Assembly: GCF_028291725.1 (NCBI RefSeq)
Contig: NZ_JAQGNT010000100.1
Span: forward strand, 1 to 64,000
Direction: 5' to 3'
DNA from: Hydrocarboniphaga sp.
GTDB lineage: Bacteria > Pseudomonadota > Gammaproteobacteria > Nevskiales > Nevskiaceae
DNA: 64,000 bases
Positions 991 to 47,768 of the stretch are shown here, piece by piece. How positions within the stretch are numbered: the stretch's first letter is position 1; each line of letters begins with the position of its first letter. The notes beneath the pieces are model-generated. The model had not been told where the DNA came from and ran no database searches. It worked only from the letters and a program-made list of their open reading frames with translations. Position numbers and translations under genes: made by a program.

Positions 991-2855
991 CCGGAATCAC
1001 CTGAGGGTAACAACGCCGGCAGATTCGGTGACGAGATGGGTCCCACTCGTACTCGCTCAGCCAAGCTGCCGTATGAACGTAATAGCGCGAGCGTGCCTAT
1101 TACGGCACTCATCCATTGCGCGATGGTGAGAACGAGCGACGCATAGAAGAGGTGCATGTATCGTTCGGCATCCGCACCGGCGCCCATCGCCAATAGATGG
1201 AATGGAAGAACAGCAAGCCCCATTGCGGAGGACAACGTCAACACAAGCAGGCTGCGTTCGCGATGGCGCAGATAGGCACGCAGTTGGGCGAAGAGCAACA
1301 CCAGCAGCACGATCGACGACAAGGCCAATGAGCCCAGGGACAAGCGCTGGTAAATGCGTTGCTGTCCGATCAGTTGAGTCTTCTCGGCATCGGCGACCGC
1401 CGGTTCGGCCGGTGTGGCCGAATCGGTTGCCGGCACACGCGGCGGCAACGTGGCCTGCCACTGTTCGAGTTTGGTCTGGATCAGACTGCCGCTGTCGATC
1501 TGTGGCTCGGCGTGCTGAAATTTTTGCTCCGTTTCCCACTGGTGGATCAGGTCGCGGGCGATGCCGAACGCATCGACGAAGGAACGGGTACGGCTCAACG
1601 CTTGCTGGAAATAGGCCCGGCCGAAGTAGGTGAACTCGGCGGTATCACTGCAGCCGAACGACGTGCGATCGGCACGCGCCGCAGTGATCACCAGAGTATG
1701 GTCGTTCCGCAATTCGGGGATAAATGATCCGCTGTAGCAACTGGATACCACGATCACTCGCCAGCGGATGCCGGCGGCATCGAGCATTCCGGCCAGGTCG
1801 CGAGCACCAAGATCATGCAAGCCGACGCCAGGCAGATTCACCGCCATCTGCGCATCGCGCGAGCCATGGCTGGTGAGATAGAGGAACAGGATGTCCTGAT
1901 CTAGGATCATCTTCTGCCCTAGTTCTCGCAGCGCAGTCCGCAGGTTGCTGACCGAGGCCAGCGGGGTGGAGGCAACGGAAGCGCGGCTATTGATTAGAGT
2001 CAGCGTGCGATCTTTCGCGCCCAAATCGCTCTCGAACAGATGCTCGGTGTAATGCGCCTCCTTGGCGAACACTCCCTGCTTCGCATAGGGCGCGAAGGAG
2101 ACGAAGTACAGGCTTGGCTTGCCCTTCGTGCCAGGTACGATCCGGTCCAGTGCCTTGGTCAGCAGCAAAGGCTGCGATGGCAGCACGTCCTCTGCGACCA
2201 GTGGTTCTTCTTCGGGGCGGTCGCGATACAGGGCGTAGTAGTCGGTGTACCAGAATTCGCCGGACGGCATCAGCCAGTTGGCGGCAGCCAGCACTGCCGC
2301 CGCTGCGAACGACAACAGCACGCGCCTGGCGGCCGGCGTGCCCGCAGCCAAGCCGGACAGGGCACGCCAAAGCATGGCTGCCCACCACAACGCCAGAGCG
2401 GTGTAGATAATCCATTGACGATTGCTGGTTTCATCGCCGCCGTCCGGAATCGCGTCATACGCGACGGCGTAGATCGCCATTGGGATTAGCGCGCCGTACG
2501 CGAACAGCGTGGCGAGCGACCAAAGCATCGCCTCGCGGCTGAGGCTCTTGAGGAGCAGGTAGCAGACGAACAGGCTCAGCAGCGAATGCCCGGCCAGGCT
2601 TTCGAAGCCATTGGCGCTGAACTGTCGGGGTGACCCGGCCATGAAGTAATCAATGGCGGCGTACCAGGGCGCCACTAACAGGAGCGCCAACCAAAACGAG
2701 CCTGCGGTGAACGCGACTTGGTTGGGATTCGGCTTGCGCAGTACGGCCAGCTGCAGTCCCGCCGAAATTGCAGAACCCATTTGCAACCACGGGGACGGTC
2801 CGGGTTTGCGCGGAACCTCCGCCGACCCGCCAGCGCCCAGCTTATCGTGCCACAT
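954..2855 (-). CDS. Membrane-anchored C13 (legumain/caspase-like) cysteine peptidase
   Basis: A 633-aa protein with several hydrophobic segments in the first ~220 residues, a soluble peptidase domain at about residues 240-460, and further hydrophobic segments near the C-terminus (around 505-600). The catalytic pair of the C13 clan-CD fold is visible: His in LYLTSHGS and Cys in VVSSCYSGSF, after the typical FVSFAPYAKQ beta-strand region. C13 proteins of this layout occur in gammaproteobacteria, but substrates are mostly unknown. The start at 2855 has a weak ribosome-binding site; Met26 is an alternative. The last codons (QVGVSAES...) are encoded by one arm of a family A palindrome, so the C-terminus looks recently altered. 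It follows glpK on the same strand after a 285-bp gap. Confidence 0.8.
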   Translation of the reverse strand: MWHDKLGAGGSAEVPRKPGPSPWLQMGSAISAGLQLAVLRKPNPNQVAFTAGSFWLALLLVAPWYAAIDYFMAGSPRQFSANGFESLAGHSLLSLFVCYLLLKSLSREAMLWSLATLFAYGALIPMAIYAVAYDAIPDGGDETSNRQWIIYTALALWWAAMLWRALSGLAAGTPAARRVLLSFAAAAVLAAANWLMPSGEFWYTDYYALYRDRPEEEPLVAEDVLPSQPLLLTKALDRIVPGTKGKPSLYFVSFAPYAKQGVFAKEAHYTEHLFESDLGAKDRTLTLINSRASVASTPLASVSNLRTALRELGQKMILDQDILFLYLTSHGSRDAQMAVNLPGVGLHDLGARDLAGMLDAAGIRWRVIVVSSCYSGSFIPELRNDHTLVITAARADRTSFGCSDTAEFTYFGRAYFQQALSRTRSFVDAFGIARDLIHQWETEQKFQHAEPQIDSGSLIQTKLEQWQATLPPRVPATDSATPAEPAVADAEKTQLIGQQRIYQRLSLGSLALSSIVLLVLLFAQLRAYLRHRERSLLVLTLSSAMGLAVLPFHLLAMGAGADAERYMHLFYASLVLTIAQWMSAVIGTLALLRSYGSLAERVRVGPISSPNLPALLPSGDSGQVGVSAESANN

Positions 2856-3140
2856 GGGTTAATCCGTAATTGCCGGAGACTTCAAGATCATACAAAGCCG
2901 AATCAACCGAGAAGAGGACAAGTAGCACAAGAAAAGCTGAACGGGGCCTTCTGCGCGCCGAGCGCAATGCTCCAGCGCCCCTCTCGCGCCTCCTGACAAA
3001 AGGGGGCGGTCGCTACTGAAATTGCTCCGCAGTTATGGGCTGAGAGCACTTTCTATCCGTGATGAGTCCAATCCGATTCTTGCTGACCCTTGCCCGCTAG
3101 CAGAGGCGCAGCGCCAGCAAACCTGAAGTCGCTCCTACGA
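2856..3140. other. Intergenic, no gene seen
   Basis: 285 bp between glpK and the C13 peptidase, both on the minus strand. I see no coding frame, strong terminator or known repeat here. It must hold whatever promoter drives the peptidase gene, but no convincing -35/-10 pair could be assigned. Confidence 0.4.
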
Positions 3141-4634
3141 TCACGCGTCGCTGCGCACCCGCTTCACCGCGTCGAGCCAGCCGTCGTAGAGCCGGTCCGC
3201 ATCGGCGGCCGGCCGTGCCGGCGAGAAGCGCGCATCGGACTTCCACAGCGCGGCGATCTCGCCCAGCGATTCGTAGACACCCGCGCCGAGTCCGGCCAGC
3301 AGCGCCGCACCCAAAGCCGTGGTCTCGACCACCTGCGGACGTAGCACGTCGATCTGCAGCACATCGGCCAGGAACTGCGTCAGCCAGTCGTTGACGACCA
3401 TGCCGCCATCGACGCGCAGCTCGGTCGGCGTGCAGGCATCGCCGGCCATTGCCAGCATCAGGTCGCGAGTCTGATAACAGGTGGATTCCAGCGCGGCGCG
3501 GACGATATGCGCGATGCCGGAATCGCGCGTCAGGCCGAAGATCGCGCCGCGCGCCTCCGGGTCCCAGTACGGCGCGCCGAGGCCGGTGAAGGCCGGCACC
3601 AGGTAGACGCCCTGGGTGTCCTGGATCGAGCGCGCCAGCGCCTCGGTTTCGCCGGCGGCGCCGATCAGCCGCACCGCGTCGCGCAGCCATTGCACGGCAG
3701 CGCCGGCGACGAAGATCGCGCCTTCCAGCGCATAAGTCGTCTCGCCGTTCAGGCGATACGCGACCGTCGACAGCAGGCGGTTTTTGCTGTGGGTGAATTC
3801 GCGGCCGGTGTTCAGCACCATGAAGCAGCCGGTGCCATAGGTGCTCTTGATCATGCCGGGCTCGAAACAGGCCTGGCCGACCACCGCGGCCTGCTGGTCG
3901 CCGGCGACGCCGCGGATCGCGATCGGCCCGCCGAACAGCTCCGGTACGGTGCTGCCGTAGTCGTCGGCGCAGTCGCGCACCTCGGGCAGCAGCTCGGCCG
4001 GGATATTGAAGAAAGCCAGCAGCTCGTCGTCCCATTGCTGGCGGCGGATGTCGAACAGCGCGGTGCGCGAGGCATTGGTCGCGTCGGTTGCGTGCAGCTT
4101 GCCGCCGCTGAGGTTCCACAGCAGCCAGCTGTCGATGGTGCCGAACGCCAGTTCGCCGCGTTTGGCCGCATCACGCGCGCCGGCGACGTGCTCGAGCAGC
4201 CAGGCGATCTTGGTCGCCGAGAAATACGGGTCGATCAGCAGGCCGGTTTTGTTCGCGATCCACTCGTCATGCTGGCCGTTCCTGCGGCAGAACTCGGCGG
4301 TGCGGCGGTCCTGCCAGACGATCGCCGGATGGATAGTCTTGCCGGTCTTGCGGTTCCAGATCAGCGTGGTTTCGCGCTGGTTGGTGATGCCCAGCGCGGC
4401 GATATCGGCGGCTTTGCGTCCGGCGCGGGCCAGCGCCTCGCGCACGCAGGCCACGGTGTCGGTCCAGATGCGCTCCGCGTCGTGCTCGACCCAGCCCGGC
4501 TGCGGGAACGACTGCGGCAGCTCGCGGCTGGCGCTGGCGAGTTTGGCGCCGCCACGGTCGAACACGATCGCGCGCGAGCTGGTGGTGCCCTGGTCGATCG
4601 CCAGCAGAGCGGTGGAAGGCGCGGCCTGGCTCAT
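3141..4634 (-). CDS. glpK: Glycerol kinase
   Basis: ATP-dependent phosphorylation of glycerol to sn-glycerol 3-phosphate in the cytoplasm. The 497-aa length matches the family (~500). N-terminal FGGY-kinase phosphate-binding loop [26 protein letters not shown] region, GVAGDQQAA, and the C-terminal [15 protein letters not shown] signature are all present. The start at 4634 is chosen over an upstream in-frame ATG because AGGAGA sits 5 nt before it and the protein then begins directly before the first conserved strand. No glpF, glpD or glpR is adjacent. The divergent neighbour is a monoacylglycerol-lipase-like enzyme, which would release glycerol. Confidence 0.95.
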
Positions 4635-6262: not shown

Positions 6263-6330
6263 ACAGCGCTCCGATTCGGCAGGACGAAAAGGGGCGCAGA
6301 CGACAAGCACGGCCTCGCGGCCGCGGCAGA

Positions 6331-6486
6331 TCATCGCTCTCGTAACCGGACTTTACCGTCGGCTTCGGAATCGCACCGAATCTGCTAGTCCCCGACGCGG
6401 CAATAAGCTGCTGCGCCGGGCGCCCGCGGGCTTGTGCGATCGCTCGCCATTACCGCCGGTGGGGAATTGCACCCCGCCCCGAGATC
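6331..6486 (-). promoter_or_regulatory. FMN riboswitch (RFN element)
   Basis: Read on the minus strand, the conserved RFN segments appear in order: GGGGCGGGGTGCAATTCCCC, then ACCGGCGGTAA, a variable stem with GCCCGCGGGCG, GGTGCGATTCCGAAGCCGAC, GGTAAAGTCCGG and ACGAGAG. This is a near-complete match to the FMN aptamer. It lies 69 nt upstream of the ribH2 start, so FMN should repress ribH2. A GC-rich hairpin (CGGCCGCGAGGCCG, about 6308-6325) lies between aptamer and gene and could be the expression platform, but it has no clear U-run. Confidence 0.93.
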
Positions 6487-6558
6487 CGCGCACGGCGTAG
6501 CCGGCGCGAGGCGCGATTCTGCGGGAGGAAAATGCTGGGCTGCAAGTTTCAGCTGCGG

Positions 6559-6723: not shown

Positions 6724-7719
6724 TTGAGCCAGCACGCTTTCCCGCGCACCCGCCCGCGCCGCCTGCGCCGCACCGAATTCATCCGCGGCATGGTCCGCGA
6801 GCATTCGCTGCATGCCAGCCAGCTGATCCAGCCGATTTTCATCGCCGAGGGCGCACAGAAAGGTCCGGTGTCGTCGATGCCCGGTGTAGTGCGCCTGGAC
6901 ATCCTCGAGCTGGTACGCGAATGCCAGGAGCTGGCCGCGCTCGGCATAGGCTGCGTCGCGCTGTTCCCGGTGCTGCCCCAGTCACTGAAGACCGAAGACG
7001 GCGCTGAGGCGTTGAATCCCGATGGTCTGGTGGTGCGCGCGATCAAGGCGGTGAAAGCCGCCTGCCCGGACCTCGGCGTGATGGTCGACATCGCGCTCGA
7101 CCCTTACACCTCGCACGGCCACGACGGCCTGCTCGATGCCAGCGGCTACGTCACCAACGATCTGACGCTGGAGATGCTGCGCAAACAGGCGCTGCTGTAC
7201 GCACGAGCCGGCGCCGACATCGTCTCGCCCTCGGACATGATGGACGGCCGCATCGGCCAGATCCGCGAAGTGCTGGAGCGCGACAGCCAGCACAACACCA
7301 TCATTCTTTCGTACGCGGCCAAATACGCGTCGAGCTTCTACGGCCCGTTCCGCGACGCGGTCGGCTCAGCAGCGAATCTCGGCCGCGGCGACAAGCGCAC
7401 CTATCAGATGGACCCGGCGAATACCGACGAGGCGCTGCGCGAAGTCGAGCTCGATCTGGCCGAGGGCGCCGACATCATCATGGTCAAGCCCGGCATGCCG
7501 TATCTCGACATCATCCGCCGCGTGAAAGATAAGTTTGGAGTGCCGACTGCCGCGTACCAGGTCAGCGGCGAGTACGCGATGCTGCACGCGGCCATTCAGA
7601 ACGGCTGGCTCGACGAGAAGAAAGCGCTGATGGAAGCGCTGCTGTGCTTCCGCCGCGCCGGCGCCGACATCGTGCTGACGTACTACGCGAAGAAAGCTGC
7701 AAAGTGGCTGGCTGAATAA
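6724..7719 (+). CDS. hemB: Delta-aminolevulinic acid dehydratase (porphobilinogen synthase)
   Basis: Joins two 5-aminolevulinate molecules to porphobilinogen in haem synthesis. The protein is 331 aa if it starts at the TTG at 6724. This is preferred because AGGA lies 5 nt upstream and the next residues (SQHAFPRTRPRRLRRTEFIRG) match usual HemB N-termini, while the longer frame runs through the inverted repeat. The two Schiff-base lysines are seen in SYAAKYASSFYGPFRD and MVKPGMPYLD. Metal-site signals such as SPSDMMDGRIG are present. aroE follows directly, with its ATG touching the hemB stop. Confidence 0.93.
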   Translation: MSQHAFPRTRPRRLRRTEFIRGMVREHSLHASQLIQPIFIAEGAQKGPVSSMPGVVRLDILELVRECQELAALGIGCVALFPVLPQSLKTEDGAEALNPDGLVVRAIKAVKAACPDLGVMVDIALDPYTSHGHDGLLDASGYVTNDLTLEMLRKQALLYARAGADIVSPSDMMDGRIGQIREVLERDSQHNTIILSYAAKYASSFYGPFRDAVGSAANLGRGDKRTYQMDPANTDEALREVELDLAEGADIIMVKPGMPYLDIIRRVKDKFGVPTAAYQVSGEYAMLHAAIQNGWLDEKKALMEALLCFRRAGADIVLTYYAKKAAKWLAE

Positions 7720-41322: not shown

Positions 41323-42120
41323 TCAGTGCGCGCCGACCGGTGCCCGTTGGCCCTGGTGCAGGAAGCGCAGGATTTCGGCGCGATAGTGGTTGTAGGCCGG
41401 CTCGTCGGCCAGCTCGACGCGCTGGCGCGGGCGCGGCAGGTCGATGCTCAGGATCTGCCCGATCGTCGCCGCCGGGCCGTTGCTCATCATCACCACGCGG
41501 TCCGACAGCAGCACCGCTTCGTCGACGTCGTGGGTGACCATCACCACGGTGTTTTGCAGGCGCTGCTGGATCTCCATCAGCGAGTCCTGCAGCGTGGCGC
41601 GGGTCAGCGCATCGAGTGCACCGAAAGGCTCGTCCATCAGCAAGACCTTGGGCTCCATCGCCAGCGCGCGGGCGATGCCGACGCGCTGCTTCATGCCGCC
41701 GGAGATCTCGTTGGGGCGCTTGTCGATCGCATGGACCAGCCCGACCAGCTCGATCGCAGCAATGCAGCGTTCGCGCAGTCGTGCCTTGCTGTCGGTCGCG
41801 CCGAAGACGCGCTCCACCGCCAGATGCACGTTGCCGTAGACCGTCAGCCAGGGCAGCAGCGAATGGTTCTGGAACACCACGGCGCGCTCCGGGCTCGGCC
41901 CGTCGATCTGCCGGCCGTTCAGGATCACGCCGCCCTGGGCCGCCTCGATCAGGCCGGCGATCAGGTTCAGCACGGTCGATTTGCCGCAGCCGGAGTGGCC
42001 GATGATCGCGACGAATTCGCCGCGCGCGACCTGCAGATTCACGTTCTGCACGGCCACGTAGCGGCCCTTGCGCGTGTCGAACGCGATGGTCGCGTGGTCC
42101 ACCTGTAGATAGTTGCTCAT
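41323..42120 (-). CDS. nrtD: Nitrate ABC transporter ATP-binding protein
   Basis: A 265-aa ABC ATPase. Walker [16 protein letters not shown]-loop [17 protein letters not shown], signature [15 protein letters not shown], Walker [13 protein letters not shown], switch His in [16 protein letters not shown]. The NrtD/SsuB-type specificity is inferred from the permease and NrtA-type binding protein next to it. It is the last gene of the nasT - porin - nrtA - nrtB - nrtD run. Confidence 0.9.
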
Positions 42121-42147: not shown

Positions 42148-42984
42148 TCAGCTCTGCCGGTAGTCGTAGCGTTTCGCGATCAGCGTCATGCCGTGCTCGA
42201 TCAGCAGGCCGACCACGCCGATCACCAGGATCGCGATCAGAATGTGTTCCATGTTGAGGCTGTTCCACTCGTCCCAGAGCCAGAAGCCGATGCCGACGCC
42301 GCCTGTCAGCATCTCGCTGGCGACGATCGCCAGCCAGGCGATGCCGAGCGCCAGCTTGGCGCCGCTGAGCACGTAGGGAATGCTGGCCGGCAGCAGGATC
42401 CGCGTCAGCACTTTCCACTCGGACAAGCGCAGCACGCGCGCGACGTTGAGATAGTCCTGCGGCACGCTGGATACGCCCAGCGCGGTGTTGATGATCATCG
42501 GCCAGATGCTGCAGATGAAGATCACGAAGATCGCCGCCGGGTTGGCTTTCTGGAACACCGCCAGGCCGATCGGCAGCCAGGCCAGCGGCGACACCGGCCG
42601 CAGCAGGCTGATGATCGGGCTGACTGCGCGATTCAGCAGCGCGTAGCGGCCCAGCAGAAAGCCCAGCGGAATGCCGACCAGCGCCGCCAGGCCGAAGCCC
42701 TCGGCGACGCGGCCTACCGACTTCAGCAGGTTCCAGCCGATGCCCTGGTCGTTAGGGCCCTGGTCGTAGAACGGATGCGCGAACACCTCGACCGCGGACG
42801 CGAAGGTCTTGCCGGGGCTCGGCAGGTTGCTGGAACCGGCCGCGATCAGCGCCCACACGCCGACCAGCGCCGCCAGCCCGAACAGCGGCGGCAGCAGCCA
42901 GGCGAGCGCCGTGCGCAACGCCGCCGCCACGGTTCTGATCAGCGCCATCGGCCGCGTCCTGGCCGGCTGCGGAGTGCTCGCCAT
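42148..42984 (-). CDS. nrtB: Nitrate ABC transporter permease
   Basis: A 278-aa inner-membrane permease with about six helices. It carries the EAA-type loop seen in NrtB/TauC/SsuC permeases (AEGFGLAALVGIPLGFLLGR and LGIAWLAIVASEMLTGGVGIGFWLWDE). It lies 27 bp before nrtD and 3 bp after nrtA on the same strand, so it belongs to one operon. Confidence 0.9.
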   Translation of the reverse strand: MASTPQPARTRPMALIRTVAAALRTALAWLLPPLFGLAALVGVWALIAAGSSNLPSPGKTFASAVEVFAHPFYDQGPNDQGIGWNLLKSVGRVAEGFGLAALVGIPLGFLLGRYALLNRAVSPIISLLRPVSPLAWLPIGLAVFQKANPAAIFVIFICSIWPMIINTALGVSSVPQDYLNVARVLRLSEWKVLTRILLPASIPYVLSGAKLALGIAWLAIVASEMLTGGVGIGFWLWDEWNSLNMEHILIAILVIGVVGLLIEHGMTLIAKRYDYRQS

Positions 42985-42987
42985 CGG

Positions 42988-44259
42988 CTAGGCCTTGATC
43001 TTGAAGGCGGCGGCGTAGTCTGCCGCCTTGGTGGGATCGAAGACGACGCCGTCGAACAGAGTCTCGCTCTTCAGCGGGCTGGCCGGCAGCGCGACGCCCA
43101 GCATCTTGGCGACGTCGCTGTACAGATCGATCTGGTTGACCTGGCGCGCGATCGCCAGGTAATCGACGTCCTGCTTCAGCAGGCCCCAGCGGCGGTGCTG
43201 GCTCATGAACCAGATACCATGCGACAGGTACGGATAATTGACCTCGCCGTCGGCATAGAACTTCATGTAGTTGTCGTCCTGCCACTTGCCGCCCTTGCCG
43301 TCGTCGTAGTGGCCGAGCATGCGGTCGAGTATCACCGGCGAAGGCGCGTTGACATAGGACTTGCCGCCGATGATCTCGGCGACCTTGGCGCGGTTGCTCA
43401 TCGCGTCGATGTACTGGCTGGCTTCGAGCACCGCGGCCACCATCGCGCGCGCGGTGTTCGGATAGCGGTCGACGAAGGCCTTGGTCGTGCCCAGCACTTT
43501 TTCCGGGTGATTTTTCCAGATCGCCTGCGAAGTGGTCGCGGTGTAGCCGATCCTGTCGAACACCGCGCGGCCGTTCCAGGGCTCGCCGACGCAATAGCCG
43601 TCCATGTTGCCGACGCGCATGTTCGCGACCATCTGCGGCGGCGGAATCGTGATGGTCTTGACGTCGCGCAGCGGATCGATGCCGTGCGCCGCCAGCCAGT
43701 AGTACAGCCACATCGCATGCGTGCCGGTGGGGAAGGTATGCGCGAAGGTGTACTCGCGATCCTTGCTGGCGACGGCGGCTTTGAGCTTTTCGCCGCTATC
43801 GACGCCGGCTTCCAGCAATTTGTTCGACAGCGTGATCGCCTGGCCGTTGGCATTGAGATTCATCAGGATCGCCATGTCCTGTTTCTGGCTGCCGATGCCC
43901 AAGTGCGAGCCGTAGATCAGGCCGTAGAGCACGTGTGCGGCGTCGAGCTGGCCGAGCTGCAGCTTGTCGCGCACCGCGGCCCAGCTCGCCTCCTTGGTGA
44001 CGGTCACGTTGAGGCCGTACTTCTTGTAAAGGCCCAGTTCCGAGGCCATGACCACGCTGGCGCAATCGGTCAGCGGGATGAAGCCGATCGTCAGATCGGT
44101 CTTCTCCGGCTTGCCGAAATCGGCGGCGCCGGCATTGCGGATGAAGCCCGGCGCCAGCGCCGACAGGCCGAGGCCGCCGGCAGCGAGCAGGGAGTTTTTG
44201 ACGAAGTGGCGCCGCGTCAGACTGAGTGCATCGGATGTAGGCGGATTTGAATGTTTCAC
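42988..44259 (-). CDS. nrtA: Nitrate ABC transporter substrate-binding protein, Tat-exported
   Basis: A 423-aa NrtA/CmpA-type binding protein. It has a Tat signal (TRRHFVKNSLLAAGGLGLSAL) followed by a family-typical GFIPLTDCASVVMASELGLYKKYGL. Further NrtA marks: FPTGTHAMWLYYWLAAHGIDP, GEPWNGRAVFD and HRRWGLLKQDVDYLAIAR. The GTG at 44259 is preferred over the TTG at 44265 because TGGAG is 8 nt before it. NasS, the usual cytoplasmic sensor partner of NasT, is related to NrtA; this copy has an export signal, so it looks like the transporter component rather than NasS. Confidence 0.88.
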   Translation of the reverse strand: MKHSNPPTSDALSLTRRHFVKNSLLAAGGLGLSALAPGFIRNAGAADFGKPEKTDLTIGFIPLTDCASVVMASELGLYKKYGLNVTVTKEASWAAVRDKLQLGQLDAAHVLYGLIYGSHLGIGSQKQDMAILMNLNANGQAITLSNKLLEAGVDSGEKLKAAVASKDREYTFAHTFPTGTHAMWLYYWLAAHGIDPLRDVKTITIPPPQMVANMRVGNMDGYCVGEPWNGRAVFDRIGYTATTSQAIWKNHPEKVLGTTKAFVDRYPNTARAMVAAVLEASQYIDAMSNRAKVAEIIGGKSYVNAPSPVILDRMLGHYDDGKGGKWQDDNYMKFYADGEVNYPYLSHGIWFMSQHRRWGLLKQDVDYLAIARQVNQIDLYSDVAKMLGVALPASPLKSETLFDGVVFDPTKAADYAAAFKIKA

Positions 44260-44321
44260 GGGCAACGCTCCAGCAAGCTAATGGTTTGAAAACAGGTCTG
44301 AACGGGTTCCGGGATCCGGCA

Positions 44322-44488
44322 CTAGTAGTCCGTTTCATCAAAACGATGACGCAATGAAACCGATGGATTTTTCCGCCAGGCAAGGCGCAGACCCGCCGCC
44401 GCACCGTTCGTGCGGCAAGGGGCTGCAACGCCGCCTGGCGGAAAAAGACGCGGTTTCATGTCAGCGTTTTGGTGAAACGGACTACTAG
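44322..44488. mobile_element. MITE-like palindromic element, family E
   Basis: 167 bp bounded by CTAG, with 29-bp terminal inverted repeats having two mismatches (CTAGTAGTCCGTTTCATCAA at one end; inverse TTGGTGAAACGGACTACTAG at the other). Inside is another hairpin (TTTTTCCGCCAGGC / GCCTGGCGGAAAAA). No coding frame. The right CTAG contains the stop codon of the porin gene. Single arms of the same sequence occur at 60002-60025 and perhaps 28321-28343. Confidence 0.8.
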
Positions 44489-45732
44489 AACTTGTATTCG
44501 AGCCACAGCCAGGTCTTGGTCGTGTCGAAAGGCGTGCCAGCGGCGGCCGGAAAATCCTTCGCGGAATAGGCGGCGTACTTCAGGCCGAGCGACAGCTGGT
44601 CGGTGAACGGACGCGTCGCCTGCAATTCGAGTTCGGTGCCGTAGTGAATGCTGGCTTCGTCGGAGCGGTAATCGTGCCAACGGGCCAGCAGCGCGACTTT
44701 CTCGACATTGCCGCCGACCGAAAAATACAAATCCTTGATGCCGTTGACCGGTGTCACCAGAAACTGGTCGGCCCAGCCCTGGAACGCATGCAGCGTCGCC
44801 AGCGGAGTCTGGAAGCTATAAACGCCGTCGCCGCCCAGCACCTCGTAGCCGATCTTCGCGTTGTACTTGTCGTAGGCGAGGCCGGTTTCGATCAGATAGT
44901 AGTCGGCGTCGACCGTGGACGGTGCGTCGGCGTAGTCGCTCTGCTGGGCGTACTCGGCCGTATAGCTCAGCGTGAACTTGTCGAGCGGCAGCGTGCCGAC
45001 CGCGCGCAGCCCCAGCGACTGCGTGTCCTGCCGCGCGATCGGTGGCGCCGGGATCGCGTCGAAGTCCAGCAGATAGGCGTAGGCGCTGAGCGTCAGCGTC
45101 TTCAGCGGCGCGTAGGCAAGATTGAACGCATGCGCCTTGATGTCGATATCGCTGCTGCTCTTGCCGCCGATCGAGAACGGCTTGAATGCGTCGACGTTGT
45201 AGATGTAGGCGTAATTGAACGTGGTCTTTGGAAGCCAGGTGCTGCTCAGCGACAGTGCGTCGTAGGTCTGCTCGTTCTGGCGCCAGCCGACATTGCCGAT
45301 GTAGCGCGCGTTGTCGTAGATCAGGCGCTGGCGGCCGTACTTGATCGTGGTCTTCGGCAGGCCGCTGTAGCGGATCCAGCCCTGGTTCAGTTCGTTGGTC
45401 TTGGGATCTGCGACCACCGGCAGGCCGGTCTGGCCATTGGTAGTGCTGTTGAACTTGTCGCTGCCCAGCACGGTGACGCCCTCGTATTCGAGCTGGCCGT
45501 CGATGTTGTTCCATTTGCCGGTGGTGTAGCCGAGCCGGACGCGAGCGGTCAGCGCGTTGGCGTCGTCGCTGAGGTTGTCCTGGTCGACCTGCTCATAGCG
45601 CAGCCGCGCGTCGATGTTCGGTGTGCCGCCGGACGCCGCGTACTGCAGCGTGTCCAGGCCGTCGGCGCAAGCGCCGGTGGACGCTGCCAAGATCGCGGCC
45701 GCCACTAGGGAGTTGAAACACCTGATAGACAT
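44485..45732 (-). CDS. Alginate-export-like outer-membrane porin of the nitrate operon
   Basis: A 415-aa barrel protein with a signal peptide (LVAAAILAASTGACA). The start of the mature part, YAASGGTPNIDARLRYEQVDQ, and GRQRLIYDNARYIGN are typical of the alginate_exp-like porin family found in proteobacterial nitrate/nitrite and aromatic uptake loci. The chain ends WLWLEYKF with the C-terminal Phe needed for barrel assembly, and the TAG that follows is the edge of element 44322-44488, so the insertion left the protein intact. An attenuator-type leader precedes it. Likely role: nitrate passage through the outer membrane (inference from context). Confidence 0.85.
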   Translation of the reverse strand: MSIRCFNSLVAAAILAASTGACADGLDTLQYAASGGTPNIDARLRYEQVDQDNLSDDANALTARVRLGYTTGKWNNIDGQLEYEGVTVLGSDKFNSTTNGQTGLPVVADPKTNELNQGWIRYSGLPKTTIKYGRQRLIYDNARYIGNVGWRQNEQTYDALSLSSTWLPKTTFNYAYIYNVDAFKPFSIGGKSSSDIDIKAHAFNLAYAPLKTLTLSAYAYLLDFDAIPAPPIARQDTQSLGLRAVGTLPLDKFTLSYTAEYAQQSDYADAPSTVDADYYLIETGLAYDKYNAKIGYEVLGGDGVYSFQTPLATLHAFQGWADQFLVTPVNGIKDLYFSVGGNVEKVALLARWHDYRSDEASIHYGTELELQATRPFTDQLSLGLKYAAYSAKDFPAAAGTPFDTTKTWLWLEYKF

Positions 45733-45774
45733 TGATCGGTTTCCTTGAATGTCCGGCCGCTCTTGCTGCCGGTT

Positions 45775-45880
45775 GAAAAAACAAAAAAAAGGGCGCCCAT
45801 CCGGCCGTGCGGATAGGCGCCCTCGCCTCGAATCTCGGTAATCTTCGACTGCAAACTTCGCGGCGCTCCGACGCTGGAGC
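45775..45880 (-). promoter_or_regulatory. ANTAR-type antitermination leader before the porin-nrt genes
   Basis: Read as minus-strand RNA: hairpin P1 GCUCC-AGCGUC-GGAGC (45880-45865) has a hexaloop with A1 and G4, the ANTAR consensus. A short hairpin AGGC-GAGGGC-GCCU (45828-45815) keeps G4 but not A1. It overlaps the 5' arm of a strong terminator GGGCGCCUAUCCG / CGGAUGGGCGCCC (45822-45791) followed by UUUUUUUUGUUUUUU. The gene start is 43 nt further on. A NasT-type protein binding P1/P2 would block the terminator. Confidence 0.78.
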
Positions 45881-45954
45881 CATGTGCCGCACCAAAAAAC
45901 TCAGACCAACACTCAGACCAGAAACTCAGCCCATGGACACGCCGGGCTGCGCTG

Positions 45955-46557
45955 CTACATCGCGCAGTGAGCGCTCGGCTCCAGCGACTGGATCACGCTG
46001 CGCGCGACGTCCACCAGTTTTTGCGAGCGCGTCATCGCGCGTTTACGCATCCAGTGATACGCATCGTTCTCGGTGTGCCGCTCGCGCTCCATCAGCAGAC
46101 ACTTTGCGCGGTGAATCACGCCCTGCTCGTCGCGCTGCTGCTGCGCTTTCTGCAACTCTGCGAGCAACAGGCGCTGCCCACGGAAATGCATCATTGAAAT
46201 ATGGATCAGCGAGCGGATAACGCTCGGCGGCACGCCGTCGACGACGTAGGCACTGAGCCCGAGTTGCATGGCGTCGCGCACCAGCTGACTGTCATCGCGC
46301 TCGCTGAGCACCACGATGGGGCGCGGGAACGTATGCGTGATCGCGGCCAGGCCTTCGAGCGTGTCGCGGCTGGGTGAGTCGACGTCGATGATGATCGCGT
46401 CGGGTTGCAACTGGCGTACCCGCGAATGAAGGTCGTCGTTCTCATGCACGACGCCCAGCACCACGAAGCCGGTTTCGACCAGGGCACGCTCCAGCTTCGC
46501 CGTATGTTGAGTACGGGTATCGACGATCAGAACGCGGACTGTGCTGGTGGAGAACAT
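45955..46557 (-). CDS. nasT: NasT-like ANTAR antiterminator
   Basis: A 200-aa regulator with an N-terminal receiver-like domain (about 5-125) with IIIDVDSPSRD at the phospho-Asp position but only one acid in the first pocket strand (LIVDTRT), so it may be a pseudo-receiver. A C-terminal ANTAR RNA-binding domain (about 140-190; VIHRAKCLLMERERHTENDA and RKRAMTRSQKLVDVARSVI) follows. The start is put at 46557 (MFSTSTVRVLIVD); upstream codons are the tandem repeat and terminator of its own leader. The ribosome-binding site is weak. It should promote read-through of the leaders at 46650-46737 and 45775-45880. NasS, its usual antagonist, is not in the window. Confidence 0.87.
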   Translation of the reverse strand: MFSTSTVRVLIVDTRTQHTAKLERALVETGFVVLGVVHENDDLHSRVRQLQPDAIIIDVDSPSRDTLEGLAAITHTFPRPIVVLSERDDSQLVRDAMQLGLSAYVVDGVPPSVIRSLIHISMMHFRGQRLLLAELQKAQQQRDEQGVIHRAKCLLMERERHTENDAYHWMRKRAMTRSQKLVDVARSVIQSLEPSAHCAM

Positions 46558-46605
46558 AGGCAATGCTTGGGTGAGAGGCTCGATTGCAGAGTTGACGAAA
46601 ACGCC

Positions 46606-46645
46606 GATGGAATGACGATGGAATGACGATGGAATGACGATGGAA
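46606..46645. repeat. 11-bp tandem repeat in the nasT leader
   Basis: GATGGAATGAC repeated about 3.6 times without mismatch, between the leader terminator and the nasT start. The unit is not a multiple of three and lies outside the coding region. Confidence 0.88.
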
Positions 46646-46649
46646 AGAC

Positions 46650-46737
46650 AAAAAAAGCGCCCATCCGATTTTACGGATGGGCGCCTTTGCCCTGCATTGG
46701 TGTTCGCTGCGGTACGGGGACTTTCCAACGCTGGAAA
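46650..46737 (-). promoter_or_regulatory. ANTAR-type antitermination leader before nasT itself
   Basis: Minus-strand RNA: P1 UUUCC-AGCGUU-GGAAA (46737-46722), hexaloop A1 and G4. P2 GGGC-AAAGGC-GCCC (46692-46679), hexaloop A1 and G4. P2's 3' arm overlaps the terminator GCGCCCAUCCG-loop-CGGAUGGGCGC (46684-46657), which is followed by UUUUUUU. Both ANTAR hairpins match the published consensus. The terminator stem is nearly the same as the one before the porin, suggesting that one leader arose from the other by duplication. Confidence 0.85.
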
Positions 46738-46767
46738 TATCAGTCGCCGTAGTGGCCAGTAAACAAC

Positions 46768-46784
46768 AGCAATAGCCGAGCCAA
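46768..46784 (-). promoter_or_regulatory. Sigma-54 promoter of the nitrate unit
   Basis: On the minus strand TTGGCTCGGCTATTGCT matches the -24/-12 consensus (TTGGCACGNNNNTTGCW) at all but one specified base, with the required GG-N10-GC spacing. Transcription would begin near 46757, 20 nt before hairpin P1 of the nasT leader. Sigma-54 and NtrC control is normal for nitrate assimilation genes. Confidence 0.8.
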
Positions 46785-46819
46785 AGGCCCTGCACTAGGT
46801 AGAATTGTCTAATAATAAG

Positions 46820-46841
46820 TACATGAACGACGGTTCATGTA
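46820..46841. promoter_or_regulatory. 22-bp dyad upstream of the sigma-54 site
   Basis: TACATGAAC-GACG-GTTCATGTA, a perfect 9-bp inverted repeat with a 4-nt centre. It begins 36 bp upstream of the -24 box and 22 bp after the rimK stop. It could be an activator site for the nitrate unit or a terminator for rimK; the following bases are only moderately T-rich. Confidence 0.55.
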
Positions 46842-46862
46842 AAAACGGCCTTATTTCTTAAA

Positions 46863-47768
46863 TTAACCTCGCCCGCGAGTCCGCGTGCGCCAGGGCTTGG
46901 CGTTCTTCTCGACGAACTCGATGATCAGGCTGGCGATGTCGATGCCGGCGACGCTCTCGATGCCTTCCAGGCCGGGCGAGGAGTTGACTTCCATCACCAC
47001 CGGCCCGTCGGCCGAACGCAGCAGGTCGACACCGGCGACGTTGAGCCCCATCGCTTTTGCGGCCGCCAGCGCCGTGCGGCGCTCGGCCGGCGTGATCCGC
47101 ACCGGCAGCGCGGTACCGCCGCGATGCAGGTTGGAGCGGAACTCGCCGACCTTGGCCTGGCGCATCATCGTCGCGACGATCCTGCCGCCGATCACGAAGC
47201 AGCGAATGTCGGCGCCATTGGCTTCGGCGATGAAGCGCTGCACCAGGAAGTGCGCGTCGAGGCCGCGGAACGCGTCGATCACCGACTCGGCGGCCTTGTC
47301 GGTTTCGGCCAGCACCACGCCCTGCCCCTGCGTGCCTTCGATCAGCTTGATCACCATCGGTGCGGCACCAACCACCTTCATCAGGTCGCCGGTGTCGTCG
47401 GGCGAATGCGCGAAGCCGGTGACCGGCATGCCGATGCCGTGGCGCGCCAGCAACTGGTGCGCGCGCAGCTTGTCGCGGGCACGGGTGATGGCGACCGATT
47501 CGTTCAGCGAATACGTGCCCATCATCTCGAACTGGCGCACGACAGCGGCGCCATAAAACGTCACCGACGCGCCGATGCGCGGAATCACCGCGTCGAAGCC
47601 TTCGAGCATTTTCCCGCGGTAATGGATCTCGGTGCAGCGCGGCGCGATCTTCATGTAGCAGCGCAGCACGTCGATCACCTGCACGCTGTGGCCGCGTGCC
47701 TCGCAGGCTTCGACCAGGCGCCGCGTCGAATACAGCTTGGTGTTGCGCGACAGGATCGCGATCTTCAT
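46863..47768 (-). CDS. rimK: RimK, ATP-grasp ribosomal protein S6:glutamate ligase
   Basis: Adds glutamates to the C-terminus of ribosomal protein S6. The 301-aa protein starts [20 protein letters not shown], as RimK does, and has the ATP-grasp features [38 protein letters not shown] and the metal site [25 protein letters not shown]. An in-frame GTG at 47780 overlapping the rimB stop (GTGA) is an alternative start. It is the third gene of the kinase - rimB - rimK unit. Confidence 0.93.

Follow-up and report, generated by a model that had tools for sequence, protein, structure and literature searches.

A NasT-type gene between two predicted ANTAR-responsive attenuators in a nitrate-uptake operon of Hydrocarboniphaga sp.

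NasT-dependent nas leaders are described as hairpins and a terminator lying before nitrate genes (PMC5424462, PMC3795266). What does it mean when such a leader lies before a NasT-type gene itself, and a second one follows it? This question is raised by a nitrate-uptake locus of Hydrocarboniphaga sp., contained in a stretch of 64,000 nucleotides (the window) that is part of contig C79 in a 6.47 Mb genome (G000) of 98.86% completeness. A sequence-only reading of the window had proposed a sigma-54 promoter, a P1 hairpin, a P2 hairpin overlapping a terminator, nasT, a second P1, a P2-like hairpin overlapping a second terminator, and porin-nrtABD. All of these elements were found, in that order and on the minus strand: rimK is followed by a sigma-54-type site, leader 1, the NasT-type gene, leader 2 and porin-nrtA-nrtB-nrtD (Table 1). 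Leader 1, standing directly before the NasT-type gene, is indeed placed to gate it. Elsewhere in the window, an FMN riboswitch is present at 6330-6490 (Rfam RF00050, 89.2 bits). The gap between porin and nrtA, inside the operon, holds a palindromic, MITE-like element (44320-44505) with 17 matches in the genome, itself and partial copies included.

Table 1. Features of the nitrate-uptake locus in window coordinates; hexaloops are given in square brackets.
Feature	Position	Strand	Remarks
Inverted repeat TACATGAAC-CGTC-GTTCATGTA	46820..46841	-	rimK/promoter interval; candidate operator or weak rimK terminator
Sigma-54-type promoter TTGGCTCGGCTATTGCT	46768..46784	-	one mismatch to consensus
Leader 1 P1 TTTCC[AGCGTT]GGAAA	46722..46737	-	hexaloop AGCGUU, A1 and G4, 5-bp stem
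Leader 1 P2 antiterminator hairpin GGGC[AAAGGC]GCCC	46679..46692	-	hexaloop AAAGGC, A1 and G4
Leader 1 intrinsic terminator and U-tract	46650..46685	-	overlaps P2; terminator 46685-46657, U-tract 46656-46650
nasT-like gene	45955..46557	-	200 aa; receiver and ANTAR domains, both above Pfam cut-offs
Leader 2 P1 GCTCC[AGCGTC]GGAGC	45865..45880	-	hexaloop AGCGUC, A1 and G4
Leader 2 P2-like hairpin AGGC[GAGGGC]GCCT	45815..45828	-	loop GAGGGC, G1 and G4; G1-C6 pairable
Leader 2 intrinsic terminator and U-tract	45783..45824	-	overlaps P2; terminator 45822-45791, U-tract 45790-45783
Porin-like outer-membrane gene	44485..45732	-	start 45732; Pfam Alginate_exp above cut-off, NCBIfam Opr porin below cut-off
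nrtA-like gene, nitrate-binding protein	42988..44265	-	NMT1_2; twin-arginine-type signal, by eye
nrtB, nitrate ABC permease	42148..42984	-	TIGR01183 above cut-off
nrtD, nitrate ABC ATPase	41323..42120	-	TIGR01184 above cut-off

Judged by its letters, leader 1 is a canonical ANTAR dual-hexaloop attenuator: both of its loops carry A1 and G4, and P2 overlaps the terminator. Its P2 loop, AAAGGC, is the commonest one among the full leaders collected (18 of 40, leader 1 counted). Leader 2 has a canonical P1; the loop of its P2, GAGGGC, has G4 and no A1, and for this reason we describe leader 2 as attenuator-like and do not class it as canonical. The replacement of A by G at this position, already pointed out in the sequence-only reading, was seen in the fold, in the model and in the scan described below. 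The terminators had been called nearly identical, and their 11-bp stems differ at just one position; with up to 3 mismatches allowed, the stem pattern they share was not found at any other place in the 6.47 Mb genome.

Support beyond chance was sought with a covariance model, R1. R1 was built from 25 of 30 listed leader segments, all from other loci and none from the window; the omitted segments were the window's own (L006), L015, L018, L077 and L049, the last judged spurious. Its structure consists of a 4-bp P2 stem and the remainder enters as sequence. P1 and the terminator stem were kept out because spacing and terminator length vary, so that the P1 hairpins count as separate evidence. In the window, leader 1 scored 27.4 bits (E 2.5e-6), leader 2 26.9 bits (E 3.4e-6) and the third-ranked match 15.6 bits (E 0.0096), with E-values that are rough owing to a shortened calibration. 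These scores, together with the located hairpins, bear out that two leaders of the ANTAR type follow one another here, with a NasT-type gene between them. The first scanner, run on a single strand of each of 30 Markov copies of the window, returned no full arrangement of P1, P2 and terminator, and neither did a second, RNAfold-based scanner in 768 kb of simulated sequence. Of simulated stretches of 66 nt, 1.1% contained an A1/G4 hairpin of at least 5 bp; a P2 before terminator 1 arose in 0.5% of simulated sequences. From the real window the first scanner recovered leader 1 alone. The second recovered leader 1 and one further full pattern at minus-strand index 26872 (about plus coordinate 37128), which we took to be a false positive. 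Leader 2 was missed by the scanners requiring A1; it was recovered by R1 and by a scan allowing any base at position 1.

The site TTGGCTCGGCTATTGCT deviates at one of 13 specified positions from the sigma-54 consensus, and no other site in the window, on either strand, has as few as one mismatch. We take it to be a sigma-54-type promoter, from which transcription would be expected to start at about 46757. No sigma-70-type promoter was matched within 45600-46950. With the GG/GC spacing required and up to 4 mismatches allowed, the interval between nasT and leader 2 gave no sigma-54 site either. It is very improbable that terminator 1 merely ends transcription of rimK and that the hexaloops are accidental: rimK does end about 180 nt upstream on the same strand, but the sigma-54-type site lies between it and terminator 1, and P1 and P2 match NasT leaders.

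Next, we examined the protein encoded between the leaders. It has the receiver and ANTAR domains and the key RNA-contact residues of a NasT; no NCBIfam model scored above its cut-off. In an alignment by motif, EutV residues Tyr164, Arg168 and Met172 are kept as Y167, R171 and M175, and Asn173, Arg175 and Arg177 are replaced by T176, S178 and K180. Two ANTAR proteins were detected in the genome. The other NasT, 38% identical to that of the window, is encoded on contig C83, directly followed by a nasS-like gene whose product shows no signal peptide to the eye; no leader was detected upstream of this nasT-nasS pair. The two NMT1_2 proteins detected in the genome are the window NrtA and the NasS of C83, and the gene following the window nasT is the porin. 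With two ANTAR proteins and the sole detected NasS on C83, the window gene flanked by the leaders encodes a second NasT and has no nasS next to it. The sequence-only reading, which placed a leader in front of nasT itself, has to be corrected here: the ordinary nasT-nasS unit is the one on C83, with no leader found before it.

In a FastTree phylogeny of 111 NasT sequences, the window NasT groups with those of L056 and L057 (support 0.857), where nasT is followed by an NrtA-like gene matching the window NrtA at 66-68% and lacking a visible signal peptide; nothing similar was found beside the window nasT. Relatives of the window NasT on named contigs belong to Nevskia, Stenotrophobium, Solimonas, Salinisphaera, Halomonas-type genera and Ectothiorhodospiraceae. 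NrtA-like genes after nasT, at 50-68% to the window NrtA and with no signal peptide visible, were seen at L056:5600-6748, L057:5575-6762 and L078:5690-6835, and are possibly NasS proteins derived from NrtA.

How common is a leader before nasT? We surveyed 200 distinct nasT-like genes, sampled from relatives, named contigs, the class and the phylum, with a scanner that accepted only A1/G4 loops, P2 stems of 3 bp or more and intrinsic terminators no weaker than -15 kcal/mol. A leader was found upstream (within 600 nt) of two genes and downstream (within 1.2 kb) of 55, counts to be read with the facts that the genes are related and hence not independent, that distant matches may include proteins other than NasT, and that this scanner scores leader 2 of the window as a miss. 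The survey left out one gene with short upstream sequence, eight distant loci from Bacillota (L081-L088), and L001-L004, which belong to the window's own genome and are repeated elsewhere. Earlier surveys gave two upstream cases among 56 genes, and two upstream and 43 downstream cases among 119. One of the upstream cases is the window; the other is in genome G037 (L051), where two nasT genes stand in tandem and the second has the leader before it. A leader before nasT is thus uncommon, as had been implied. The accompanying statement that known systems usually have one leader before the structural genes fits loosely, a downstream leader within 1.2 kb being present for the 55 genes just mentioned. 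The exact arrangement of the window was seen in its own genome alone among those surveyed.

Four relatives (G010, G014, G029 and G040) carry a syntenic nasT-porin-nrtABD cluster. In all four, the stretch from nasT to porin contains a sigma-54 site and a leader, whereas no leader was detected ahead of nasT. The P2 loop of this leader is AAAGGC in G014 and G040; no A1/G4 P1 was found in the G040 leader, and in G010 only one of 3 bp. No NasS was detected in these genomes or in G037, although NasT is present: the NMT1_2 proteins (E <=1e-15) comprise only the NrtA of the porin cluster in the four, and none in G037. Since the NasTs of the four have no leader in front, lack of NasS alone does not demand such gating.

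These comparisons bear on the view that leader 1 is an ordinary operon leader, gating the whole operon with nasT merely as its first gene and with any feedback incidental, as with amiR. The position of amiR behind the amiE leader is a precedent (PMC3369936), and with four leaders found in the genome one shared regulon would suffice. The four syntenic relatives, having a sigma-54 site and a leader after nasT and none found before it, and the rarity of upstream leaders in the survey speak against this view, which we consider rather unlikely.

Two further layouts deserve description. At L051, on the minus strand, each of the two leaders (about 7257-7361 and 6340-6464) consists of one P1 and two tandem P2/terminator units, forming double attenuators, the second of which was read partly by eye. 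In nasT-nasS loci L039, L041, L042, L070, L072 and L077, the last three from named Salinisphaera, a leader separates nasT from a nasS-like gene in whose product no signal peptide is visible. These make up six of eight loci examined; a seventh, L044, showed such a leader in the 119-gene survey, where it is listed as L017, and L043 is without one. The P2 loops of these intervening leaders are AACGAA, AATGAA, AAGGAA and ACCGAA. By its position, such a leader would let NasT antiterminate the message of its own antagonist, a negative feedback.

At least four leaders, leaders 1 and 2 included, were found in the window's genome. In whole-genome runs, R1 scored no more than 150 candidates taken from a first look, and the window's own leader 1 was missed, so leader counts per genome are lower bounds. 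The third leader (C78:6847-6893, 32.4 bits) has the P2 GGGC[AAAGGC]GTCC and, read by eye, a sigma-54-like TGGCAT-N5-TTGC in front. Behind it lie a narK-like gene (just below cut-off), nirB (above cut-off) and genes for molybdoenzymes akin to nitrate reductase or formate dehydrogenase, for which no model exceeded its cut-off. The fourth, found by script on the same contig (L105:1805-1870) and having a sigma-54-like site, precedes a gene at 2059-3144 for a DUF3034 outer-membrane-type protein; DUF3034-like genes, recognized by eye, also follow leaders in G014 and G037.

Which NasT could open leader 1? In G002 and G003, two genomes of the same genus (G003 being 86% complete), one NasT each was detected, of the ordinary kind. 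The narK leader has an AAAGGC P2 loop in both, as it does in G001 and in the window's genome. Since G002 and G003 combine a single NasT with AAAGGC leaders, the ordinary NasT probably reads this loop, and the NasS-paired NasT of C83 probably opens leader 1 as well. The earlier claim that the antiterminator is needed for its own message is not supported in that form.

Taken together, we favour, with some reserve, a reading in which a nitrate-uptake operon driven by sigma-54 contains a NasT-type gene with an ANTAR-responsive attenuator on either side, with relay and feedback. Transcription from about 46757 would halt at terminator 1 as long as NasT does not capture the leader 1 hairpins. In the first step nitrate would release the ordinary NasT from NasS, and this NasT would open leader 1, so that read-through of terminator 1 would yield the second NasT. 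The polymerase would then meet leader 2, where antitermination would be needed again before porin-nrtABD. The second NasT, having no adjacent NasS, could amplify the response by acting on the leader of its own gene, on leader 2 and possibly also on the genome's two other leaders. Such a circuit would likely be a relay with positive feedback, and not a gene dependent on itself alone; the relay hinges on the ordinary NasT reading AAAGGC. The positive feedback and two-step switch suggested earlier are plausible on these grounds. More tentative is a two-tier relay in which the NasS-gated NasT opens the leader of a self-amplifying second NasT, and two gates in series with different thresholds give a steep or hysteretic nitrate response purely through termination.

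Several points were weighed against the favoured reading: the P2 of leader 2 without A1, predicted folds that lack P1, long linkers, the EutV contacts that are lost, the leaderless NasTs of genomes without a detected NasS, and the occurrence of the exact arrangement in this genome alone. The linker between P1 and P2 measures 29 nt in leader 1 and 36 nt in leader 2. In the eut system, antitermination was impaired or abolished when the linker was lengthened to 14 nt in vivo, or when 20 nt were added to it in vitro (PMC3369931, PMC8934654). Exceeding the tolerance of EutV, the window linkers were counted against the reading, although 17 of 40 full leaders span 21-40 nt (20 have 3-14 nt and three are longer), with the nearest P1 used and some of these P1 possibly chance hairpins. 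As to folding, P1 of leader 1 forms neither in the minimum-energy fold of the whole leader nor in that of the segment up to P2. P1 of leader 2 is present in the whole fold; the fold up to P2 has neither P1 nor P2.

The loop AGCGUU of leader 1 P1 can close through an A1-U6 pair, and this hairpin is the weaker one (-4.1 against -8.9 kcal/mol for the P1 segment of leader 2). Both properties count against a decoy, namely that a short RNA ending at terminator 1 retains P1 and titrates NasT. EutX, which titrates EutV (PMC5821096), and the binding of single hexaloops by EutV (PMC8934654) lend this idea a precedent; we nevertheless hold it to be improbable.

For leader 2, the question is what G at loop position 1 does. 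Its P2 prefers a tetraloop closed by G1-C6 (-6.4 against -4.4 kcal/mol for the hexaloop). When any base was allowed at this position and a canonical P1 was required, 43 candidates had A in 40 cases, G in two and C in one, the last of which looks spurious. The G cases are leader 2 and L047:789 in G035, before an ORF judged by eye to be outer-membrane-like. In eutP, changes of loop position 1 or 4 reduce induction and binding (PMC3369931). In the EutV-RNA structure, G4 makes the only base-specific contact and A1 makes none; A1 may prevent loop closure, and Met172 may exclude tetraloops (PMC8934654). Because G1 allows closure, and in view of these structural and eutP data, leader 2 is expected to be the poorer target, though it need not be dead. 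Nor is leader 1 flawless, given the A1-U6 closure of its P1, and either leader may be the tighter one.

Alternatively, leader 2 could be a decayed copy with a dead P2; its terminator would then act as a constant polar attenuator and keep porin-nrtABD below nasT. G1 with its G1-C6 closure, the lack of a sigma-54 site in front, unlike in the four relatives, and some likeness between the two leaders agree with this. The intact P1, P2 stem, G4, terminator and U-tract and the score of 26.9 bits do not, nor do the other G1 leader with a canonical P1 in G035 and the absence of a specific A1 contact in the EutV structure (PMC8934654). Decay is possible and, in our estimation, doubtful. Duplication of leader 1 as the origin of leader 2 was considered and is suggestive only: their local alignment scores 42 with the long U-tracts and 35 when trimmed, leader 1 against the narK leader and leader 2 against L019 each score 34, and 42 is reached by 19 of 741 pairs of other leaders.

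The window locus resembles Paracoccus denitrificans nasA and Pseudomonas NalA/nirBD, where a NasT-type ANTAR protein goes with a hairpin/terminator leader that nitrate genes follow; a sigma-54 promoter also marks the start of NalA (PMC12830290). Paracoccus has a separate nasT-nasS unit in front of one leader, whereas in the window a NasS-less NasT gene lies between two leaders. Several dual-hexaloop attenuators in one locus are known from the Enterococcus faecalis eut genes, where they precede eutP, eutG, eutS and eutA (PMC3369931). EutV differs in being phosphorylated by EutW and in needing short linkers; the window has a nitrate locus, linkers of 29 and 36 nt, and a G1 P2. In amiECBRS of Pseudomonas aeruginosa, the antiterminator gene amiR lies downstream of its own target leader, as proposed for the window; there the leader precedes the enzyme gene, and the passages on this operon mention no second leader after the regulator gene (PMC3369936). 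The tandem nasT locus of G037, a genome of the same taxonomic order, likewise has one leader directly before a nasT and another after it; its regulator is the second of two, the next gene is DUF3034-like (by eye), and both leaders contain a pair of P2/terminator units.

Among Rfam families, none matched 45500-47000 at gathering score. The narK RNA (RF03032) matches the NasT leader of L121, its sole match (E <=0.01) among 16 leader loci; it has no match in the window at gathering score and none in 45500-47000 at E <=5. A P11 match in 45500-47000 (20.1 bits against a gathering score of 70) was too weak to be used as evidence. In its alignment with the window, the printed consensus of P11 (RF00625), a Pseudomonas sRNA family, includes GGACAAAGGCGUCC, which overlaps a hairpin, so that the family is a candidate NasT-type leader; the lack of P11 matches at E <=0.01 in the 16 leader loci argues against it.

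In titles, abstract openings and passages of the literature, we found no paper on a leader before nasT; the "nasT leader" of one passage is a region with an NtrC site (PMC5424462). The layout of the window appears to be new, and its principle, an antiterminator gene behind its own leader and several leaders per locus, is known from amiECBRS and eut.

Leader 2 offers a natural variant for asking about the role of loop position 1, as the EutV structure shows no contact with A1. Antitermination is usually drawn as running from sensor to operon; in the window the antiterminator gene is itself a putative target. If the feedback is true, this layout could make the nitrate response self-amplifying. 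In the Salinisphaera-type loci, the leader stands before the sensor gene nasS instead. Together, the two kinds of locus suggest that whether feedback is positive or negative depends on where a single RNA element is placed with respect to nasT and nasS.
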